A stretch of 64,000 nucleotides of DNA from an uncultured Spirochaetales bacterium (lineage in GTDB: Bacteria > Spirochaetota > Spirochaetia > Sphaerochaetales > Sphaerochaetaceae): NCBI GenBank assembly GCA_949295125.1, contig CASFJV010000046.1, positions 62,001-126,000 on the forward strand. Direction: 5' to 3'. This document shows positions 61,707 to 63,872 of the stretch, one piece after another; position 1 is the stretch's first letter, and each line of letters starts with the position of its first letter. The notes beneath the pieces are model-generated. The model saw only the letters and a list, made by a program, of their open reading frames with translations, did no database searches and was not told the origin of the DNA. The translations under genes and the position numbers were made by a program.

Positions 61707-62099
61707 TCATGCATGCATAGCACTGTTGCTGTTGTTAACGGCTGCATAAGCTTCCCCTTGGCTGAGAAGCATCACACAGTACTGGTTCATGCTGACGCCT
61801 TCCTCTTTTGAGCGTTCCATGAGGCGCCTATGAAGGGACTTCGGCATACGGAGTTTGAATTCTCCACTGTAATTCTTTAAGGTACTCGGCTCTGGAATCG
61901 GATCTCCATTCTCAAGCGCTGATGAAAACCATGCCTCTTTTGCATCATCAAGGCTTAAGAGCGCATCGGATGCGGATATCCCTGTGGTGATACATCCTTT
62001 AAGTTCAGGAATAAAAGCCACATATCCTTCTTCATCAGAGTCCTTCACAATCTCAACCCTGTAGGGGAGATTCATGTAATAGTTAATATCCTTAGTCAT
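61707..62099 (-). CDS. hicB: HicB-family antitoxin
   Basis: 130 residues: the N-terminal HicB fold YRVEIVKDSDEEGYVAFIPELKGCITTG with DALLSLDDAKEAW, and a C-terminal ribbon-helix-helix with FKLRMPKSLHRRLMERSKEEGVSMNQYCVMLLS. It neutralises HicA and represses the operon. Its ATG would overlap the original hicA stop as ATGA, with GAGGAG upstream. Confidence 0.88.
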   Translation of the reverse strand: MTKDINYYMNLPYRVEIVKDSDEEGYVAFIPELKGCITTGISASDALLSLDDAKEAWFSSALENGDPIPEPSTLKNYSGEFKLRMPKSLHRRLMERSKEEGVSMNQYCVMLLSQGEAYAAVNNSNSAMHA

Positions 62100-62331
62100 A
62101 TCTCCTCTTCTTCAACCGCATCCCTGACAAGCTCGATATACACTTTAGTATTGGCTTATGCCGTGGAATGACGATCTTCTTACTTCCTTTTCTAAATACA
62201 TAATGGCTACTTCCGCCTTTCGGTTGCTTCTCCTCAAATCCATAGCTCAGCAGGATCTTCTCCAACTCTTCAAACCTCAGATCCGGAGAAAGGGTCTTGA
62301 GATTGGCCATCAGCTTATCCCATTTAGACAC
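62096..62331 (-). pseudogene. hicA: HicA-family mRNA interferase, frameshifted
   Basis: The frame from GTG 62331 encodes a normal HicA start (GSSHYVFRKGSKKIVIPRHKPILK, with the expected GSSH histidine) for 63 residues, then drifts into CISSLSGMRLKKRRYD. Reading one frame over from the AAAG at about 62143-62146 gives VYIELVRDAVEEEEI and a TGA that overlaps the hicB ATG. One A is missing from a run of As, so the gene is broken, or rescued by a -1 shift. The TTGACA-type promoter and operator lie just upstream. Confidence 0.75.
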
Positions 62332-62444: not shown

Positions 62445-63734
62445 TTAAAAATTATGTCTGGCTTTCCATCGCTCTACATAATCATCAATATATCCTGGAT
62501 CAGCACCTGCTTTTTCCAGATGGGCTCTTACAAGATCCTCAGCTCTGAAGTTTTCTCCTGAAAAGAATAAAGGATAGAATCTATCAAATCCCATTTGCTC
62601 AAGTTCTTCCTTTGTAGTGTCTGGGGTAATTATTCCCATTCCCTCTTCCATATACTTTCCATTGCGGAGCGTTGCATAGTCCGTTGTCCTGAAATTGAAG
62701 ATAACGAAATCCTCTGCACCAAATCCTGGCTGCTTTTCATCTTCATACTTAATATATCTTATTGAATCTGAGCGGTAGTCCTCATAGCTGGAATAATCAT
62801 CTGCCCTTCCCTGGTAATTCCTTGGGTCCCTGTGCTCAAGGCTTCCTCCGTTTTCATAATACTCATGGATAAGTATCCTGAAATCCCTATGTCCAAATTT
62901 TTCTACTTCACCCACATTAATGAGAAGGTCATCCCCTATGCCGTCTTTTTCATCTTTAAGCTGCTTTAAAGCCTTAGCACTTAAACGCACAGCATATTCT
63001 TCGTTTTCATCAGGATCAATGAAAATTGCAATCTCATCCCCTTCTGACTTAGCGATGGGGAAATACCTCTGAAGATTGCCTGTGCCGTCCTGATTCAGCG
63101 TAAACAGGTCAACAATGACATTATCCTGTGCGTGCCCATCAAATGTGGAGAAAGAACCATCCCACTCAATTGGGATATCATCATACTGTATGCTCAGCAC
63201 GGCTGGTATCCTTGGGTATCCGTTTGCATCAGCACCATCAGCTGGCTGGAGAGAGAGGAATATGAATTCCCTGTATGAAAACCTCCTGTTCCGTATGTCA
63301 TAGCAATAGTCAATGATTCCTGCCGTCCTTCCTTCTGCGACATAAAACCTTATATAGAGATACTCTCCCCACTCAAAGTTAAACACATCGTCAATTCCAT
63401 ATTCATCATATATATTGCAGTCAAATCCATAGACATCGAAATCCCTGTAGTTTCCTCTTAGGTAATTTGGAATATTTGACGGCTTAATGTATTCTCTCCG
63501 GACAGCCTGCATCATAGGAGTGTAAGTGAGTACAGCAGTCCCGCCTCCCTTATCATTATTAAAAATTCCAAGATCTGTCAGACCTCTTGAAGAGATGCTT
63601 GGAGCAGAAGCAAAAACAGGGAAATAAAGTTCAAGTTCACTGCCATTTTCGCCAGAGCATGACACAAGGGAAAAAGCAGAAAAAACGGCAAGAACAGCAA
63701 AAATTAACAAACGGGAAATATAAGACCTTTTCAT
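62445..63734 (-). CDS. Predicted lipoprotein of unknown function
   Basis: About 429 residues. The N-terminal KRSYISRLLIFAVLAVFSAFSLVSC is a lipoprotein signal with lipobox LVSC at about residue 25. The mature part is rich in Tyr, Asp and Gly and shows no family I can name. It is likely attached to the outer or inner membrane. The ATG at 63734 is preferred over 63746, which abuts AAGG. Its promoter carries a nine-G tract. Confidence 0.65.
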   Translation of the reverse strand: MKRSYISRLLIFAVLAVFSAFSLVSCSGENGSELELYFPVFASAPSISSRGLTDLGIFNNDKGGGTAVLTYTPMMQAVRREYIKPSNIPNYLRGNYRDFDVYGFDCNIYDEYGIDDVFNFEWGEYLYIRFYVAEGRTAGIIDYCYDIRNRRFSYREFIFLSLQPADGADANGYPRIPAVLSIQYDDIPIEWDGSFSTFDGHAQDNVIVDLFTLNQDGTGNLQRYFPIAKSEGDEIAIFIDPDENEEYAVRLSAKALKQLKDEKDGIGDDLLINVGEVEKFGHRDFRILIHEYYENGGSLEHRDPRNYQGRADDYSSYEDYRSDSIRYIKYEDEKQPGFGAEDFVIFNFRTTDYATLRNGKYMEEGMGIITPDTTKEELEQMGFDRFYPLFFSGENFRAEDLVRAHLEKAGADPGYIDDYVERWKARHNF

Positions 63735-63782
63735 ATACAGCAACATCCTTATTTAAAACTGAATTCTTTTACCCGGAGAAGA

Positions 63783-63797
63783 ATTATACCCCCCCCC
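63783..63797 (-). promoter_or_regulatory. Lipoprotein promoter with poly-G spacer
   Basis: On the minus strand nine Gs (63797-63789) are followed directly by a perfect TATAAT (63788-63783). With the current length, 17 bases separate the -10 from TTTTCA, a four-of-six -35. The start codon lies about 48 bases below. An AATTCTT/AAGAATT hairpin follows in the leader. Confidence 0.6.
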
Positions 63798-63872
63798 ACG
63801 CGATTTGAAAAGGCTTTTTTGCATTTTTGATAATTTTGAATCATTAATCTCAATTTTCAGTACCTAAATATT

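Follow-up and report, generated by a model that had tools for sequence, protein, structure and literature searches.

The nine-G tract upstream of the lipoprotein gene is very probably a simple-sequence contingency switch on that gene, with slippage altering the -35/-10 spacing around 17 bases. In the window (the whole 64-kb stretch of DNA that was analysed), the minus-strand order is TTTTCA-AATCGCGT-GGGGGGGGG-TATAAT; TATAAT lies directly 3' of the tract, and the spacer of 17 bases consists of 8 non-G bases and 9 Gs (Table 1). Re-reading the coordinates on the minus strand showed that the preliminary description, which had placed a nine-G tract between TTTTCA and TATAAT with a 17-base spacer, was exact. 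The arrangement at 63783 to 63811 shares two features with promoters of the porA and TP0126 type, namely, a G tract between the -35 and the -10 and a spacing at or near 17, here 17 with nine Gs. The weak -35 (4/6) counts against a switch.

Table 1. Positions of the promoter elements and the predicted target gene in the window
Feature	Position	Strand	Remark
Lipoprotein gene, 429 aa	62445..63734	-	Predicted switch target; signal peptide with lipobox LVSC
Candidate Shine-Dalgarno AAGGA	63746..63750	-	Read from sequence
-10 TATAAT	63783..63788	-	First two bases are the TA also found 3' of 77% of genus tracts
G9 tract GGGGGGGGG	63789..63797	-	Fills the promoter-proximal half of the -35/-10 spacer
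Candidate -35 TTTTCA	63806..63811	-	4/6 matches to TTGACA

Slipped-strand mispairing in the nine-G run would lead to the gain or loss of Gs, the distance between TTTTCA and TATAAT would shift around its optimum, and transcription of the lipoprotein gene would go up or down in individual cells, either as an on/off switch or as a volume control. We infer slippage, use of this promoter, and a change of expression for the window's species. The assembled nine-G allele, with its spacing of 17, is predicted to be ON or strongest and alleles with 8 or 10 Gs to be weaker; the optimum of 17 is the TP0126 and porA value and may not hold here, as promoter spacers in the genus span 16 to 23 bases and most have 18 to 19 at nine Gs, rather than 17. 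That range of spacers would also suit a tract that affects expression without a change of spacing, through melting, DNA shape, or regulator binding, as proposed for tprL and opc, which are reported to act at unchanged spacing (PMC7864442). We consider such an effect unlikely for the present tract: as in porA and TP0126, it overlaps neither hexamer, and the spacing adds up to 17.

The lipoprotein gene and its relatives

The ATG of the lipoprotein gene is at 63734 to 63732 on the minus strand, and its signal peptide, MKRSYISRLLIFAVLAVFSAFSLVSC, and lipobox were read from the sequence; the product is thus a putative surface lipoprotein. The protein gave no Pfam, NCBIfam, or significant PDB match, and a back-translation search of genome contigs returned no relatives in named organisms. 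The gene is flanked by a divergent infC-like gene, named by eye from its translation, and by a HicB-type antitoxin gene (61707 to 62099); a HicA-like frame upstream of the latter (62099 to 62310, minus strand) seems to be frameshifted near its end.

The best two relatives of the lipoprotein, from genomes G016 and G017, share 41% identity with it. Both carry a G9 tract, but at or within the coding sequence. In the G016 relative, the tract sits past the signal peptide and the initial part of the mature protein and forms a frame switch, with a stop directly 3' of the tract at G9 and an open frame at G10. Related genes have thus held the switch at different places, which argues for selection on switching itself. 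The G017 relative (L004, G017:C1, about 24556) lacks a signal peptide, and its body starts at G9TA, immediately after livF ends. This junction may mark a gene copy that is silent, or it may stem from a deletion or a misjoin.

Recurrence and length differences of the tracts

A promoter scan of the tract region picked the same pair of hexamers, with 10/12 consensus matches. However, the region holds 10 promoter-like sites versus 6.9 ± 2.8 in shuffled sequences, so this match by itself lacks significance. Similarly, the window contains 2 overlapping G8 words versus 1.63 expected, a count reached by 46% of the dinucleotide shuffles, and under this model the nine-G run, taken by itself, would be no surprise in 64 kb. 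As both are within chance, local statistics decide nothing, and the run is significant at the level of the genome and the genus, beyond chance only in that context.

The window comes from a draft genome of 1.96 Mb, in which a search for a 16S gene found none. G runs of length 5, 6, 7, 8, and 9 occur 30, 6, 0, 0, and 1 times in the window; this steep fall-off, with no run of 7 or 8, sets the runs of nine apart as a population of their own. In the genome as a whole, there are a single exact G7, a single G8, and ten runs of at least nine Gs (nine of exactly 9, one of 15), several of which lie in promoter spacers or in the early coding sequence of exported proteins. One of them occupies the spacer of a TTGACA-16-TATTAT promoter ahead of a lipoprotein (L031), and two G9 tracts stand just 3' of TTGACA or TTGAC ahead of exported proteins, with no clear -10 (L026, L020). 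Others are found within a signal-peptide region (L028) and just 3' of a lipobox Cys (L008), while the sole C8 tract is apparently at the start of a lipoprotein gene (L030). The remaining ones (L018, L022, L033, L010) are away from exported-protein genes or too near a contig end to judge; the longest run of this genome, the 15-G run of L010 (G000:C15:13833-13847), is apparently non-coding.

Tracts were present in 48/48 genus genomes examined, 491 in total with a median of 11 per genome. A sample of 122 tracts covers a limited set of genomes and contains paralogues, so not all of its members are independent. Of these tracts, 55 (45%) had a -35 with at least 5/6 matches at a distance of 15 to 23 bases, compared with 5.3% at control positions within the same loci (binomial, about 4e-37). 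The layout of these promoters is TTGACA, 9 to 10 bases, G8 to G12, and TANNNT, usually followed by a Shine-Dalgarno sequence; in most cases, the coding sequence downstream begins as that of a lipoprotein. When the promoter pattern was searched over all genomes, about 46 chance matches were expected by our estimate, and non-spirochaete hits among the matches listed were set aside. The remaining tracts are in signal peptides, type I restriction-modification (R-M) genes, glycosyltransferases, and a phage tail gene, as assigned by eye from translations. Lipoproteins, R-M systems, glycosyltransferases, and phage tails are the usual classes for contingency loci, and the window's tract would be one member of a genus-wide poly-G set on such genes. 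At one locus (L130, G064:C59), two adjacent phage tail-like genes each carry G9TA just before a conserved YPxGS motif and are possibly phase-variable phage tails. An exported protein that carries the motif AYQLSPLNVTYDPTGA, or one close to it, recurs downstream of G tracts in several genomes (L020, L052, L074, L085, L120, L136), mostly with no clear -35.

The tract lengths in related genomes, which the preliminary description had proposed to count, differ between near-identical promoters (G8/G9/G10; G9/G10; G9/G11; G9/G12). Within one genome, two promoters with G10 (L048) and G9 (L327) show 0/80 flank mismatches, and a near-identical promoter in another genome has G8 (L287). Likewise, a G9 promoter (L119) and two G10 promoters (L123 and L124) show 0/80 mismatches. 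Two more pairs, G9 and G11 (L131 and L135) and G12 and G9 (L138 and L141), have 13 to 14 mismatches in 80. Across the genus, G8 tracts with TA sum to 103, many of them in the same promoters. These lengths were taken from short-read assemblies, in which copies of a repeat may have been merged at the ends of contigs, and with one genome per species, the differences are those between near-identical promoters in related genomes. The phase-variable reading of the preliminary description is supported by the recurrence of spacer poly-G in the same genome and genus, far above the control, and is also backed by the differing G numbers of promoter copies and the frame-switch tract in the relative.

The TA rule and other explanations

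TA directly follows 376/491 genus tracts (77%) on the 3' side, versus 4.7% of short G runs in the window. Since paralogous promoters are not independent, the tracts inside genes, as judged by eye, are better evidence for this rule, and about 21/31 of them carry TA (binomial, about 4e-21). Type I restriction subunit genes of two species (L107 in G017, L040 in G061) have the tract in the same position and on opposite strands, as Gs in the coding strand of one and as Cs in that of the other; in each, TA is on the 3' side of the Gs. In family f24, probably Treponemataceae, TA follows 156/291 tracts, while it is almost absent in other tract-rich spirochaete genomes (2/103 in G043, 1/128 in G115, and 0/59 in G167). 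A function of TA as a stop codon for OFF frames was rejected, as the non-promoter tracts are mostly followed by TAT and 20/45 have TA; a role of G9TA as a recombination crossover was not supported, as an all-against-all flank comparison gave mostly right-side matches, which derive from shared signal-peptide sequence.

Repeated insertion-sequence ends (...GGGGGTTAGTTCA) were found 2 to 4 bases from G9, in the same orientation, at L310, L311, and L081 (G061), L331 (G065), and L337 (G013). Other ends of the element have different flanks; these include cut-off promoter halves, such as TTGACAGTTCAAAA and CTTGACAAAACGGAACC in the direction of the element. On weak Pfam matches below the curated cut-off, its product is a helix-turn-helix protein of the transposase type. 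It seems that this insertion sequence targets poly-G switches and lands in one orientation; its ends occur in only 5/48 genomes, so it is not the maker of the tracts.

One conceivable explanation of the TA rule is that the poly-G switches of this genus, and in part those of the family to which Treponema probably belongs, are made as a defined word, G9TA, independent of strand, frame, and promoter context, which we regard as a doubtful proposition. If it were true, such sites would be made, spread, or recognised by a process of their own, and G runs would not simply have grown neutrally. A confirmed TA rule would place a new constraint on the origin of tracts. For the window's tract itself, it is rather improbable that G9TA is a fixed word in the DNA, subject to insertion, exchange, or recognition by an enzyme, with slippage only part of its role. 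The frequency of TA, also in genes and on either strand, the body without a signal peptide joined to livF in G017, and the insertion sequence beside tracts all favor such a word. However, the flank comparison gave no sign that the sequences on the two sides of the tract are generally exchanged, the insertion sequence is restricted to those few genomes, and TA would follow promoter tracts in any case because it starts the -10.

An ordinary constant promoter with a G run in its spacer by chance is improbable as well: although neither the run nor the promoter match goes beyond chance in the window, and no length variation was seen in the one genome of this species, this account conflicts with the genome- and genus-wide excess of runs of at least nine Gs, both between the promoter hexamers of lipoprotein genes and early in coding sequences, and with near-identical copies that differ in length. 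A sequencing or assembly artefact, such as poly-G from two-colour chemistry, would suit draft genomes in which several tracts are close to contig ends, but it is extremely improbable given a length fixed near nine, a fixed promoter position, the same design in 48 genomes, and the place of the window's tract inside a 176-kb contig.

Implications and comparison with known systems

If the slippage-driven spacing switch is real, an uncultured animal-associated spirochaete genus varies its surface lipoproteins, R-M systems, and glycosyltransferases, as pathogens do, through a repertoire of poly-G contingency tracts that number about ten or more in each genome. The recurring layout (TTGACA, 9 to 10 bases, G8 to G12, TANNNT) would then serve as a search pattern for such genes and would allow ON/OFF scoring straight from metagenome reads. 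In our literature search, we found no paper on phase variation in Sphaerochaeta or on promoter-spacer tracts in metagenomes.

In contingency genes of the Campylobacter type, which include surface and R-M genes, tracts of about nine Gs switch the reading frame; the frame-switch G tracts at other loci of the genus resemble them, whereas the window's tract is in a promoter and not in a reading frame. In Neisseria meningitidis porA, poly-G lies in the -35/-10 spacer and transcription depends on a spacing near 17 (PMC7864442). This part of the comparison drawn in the preliminary description stands; the difference is that porA is one porin gene of an unrelated phylum, whereas a repertoire of tracts is seen here. 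The tpr promoters of Treponema pallidum, also named there, are a less apt parallel. The tprL and other tpr promoters have poly-G of about 8 to 10 with length-dependent activity, but the tprL tract overlaps the -10, so that the spacing is unchanged (PMC7864442), unlike the window's tract between the hexamers. The better match is T. pallidum TP0126, a putative OmpW-like outer-membrane protein with measured effects, in whose promoter poly-G lies between the -35 and -10 with an optimum of 17 bases (PMC7864442). Both cases involve a spirochaete, poly-G in the spacer, and a total spacing of 17; TP0126 is a surface protein, and the lipoprotein here is a predicted one whose promoter is one of many such promoters.
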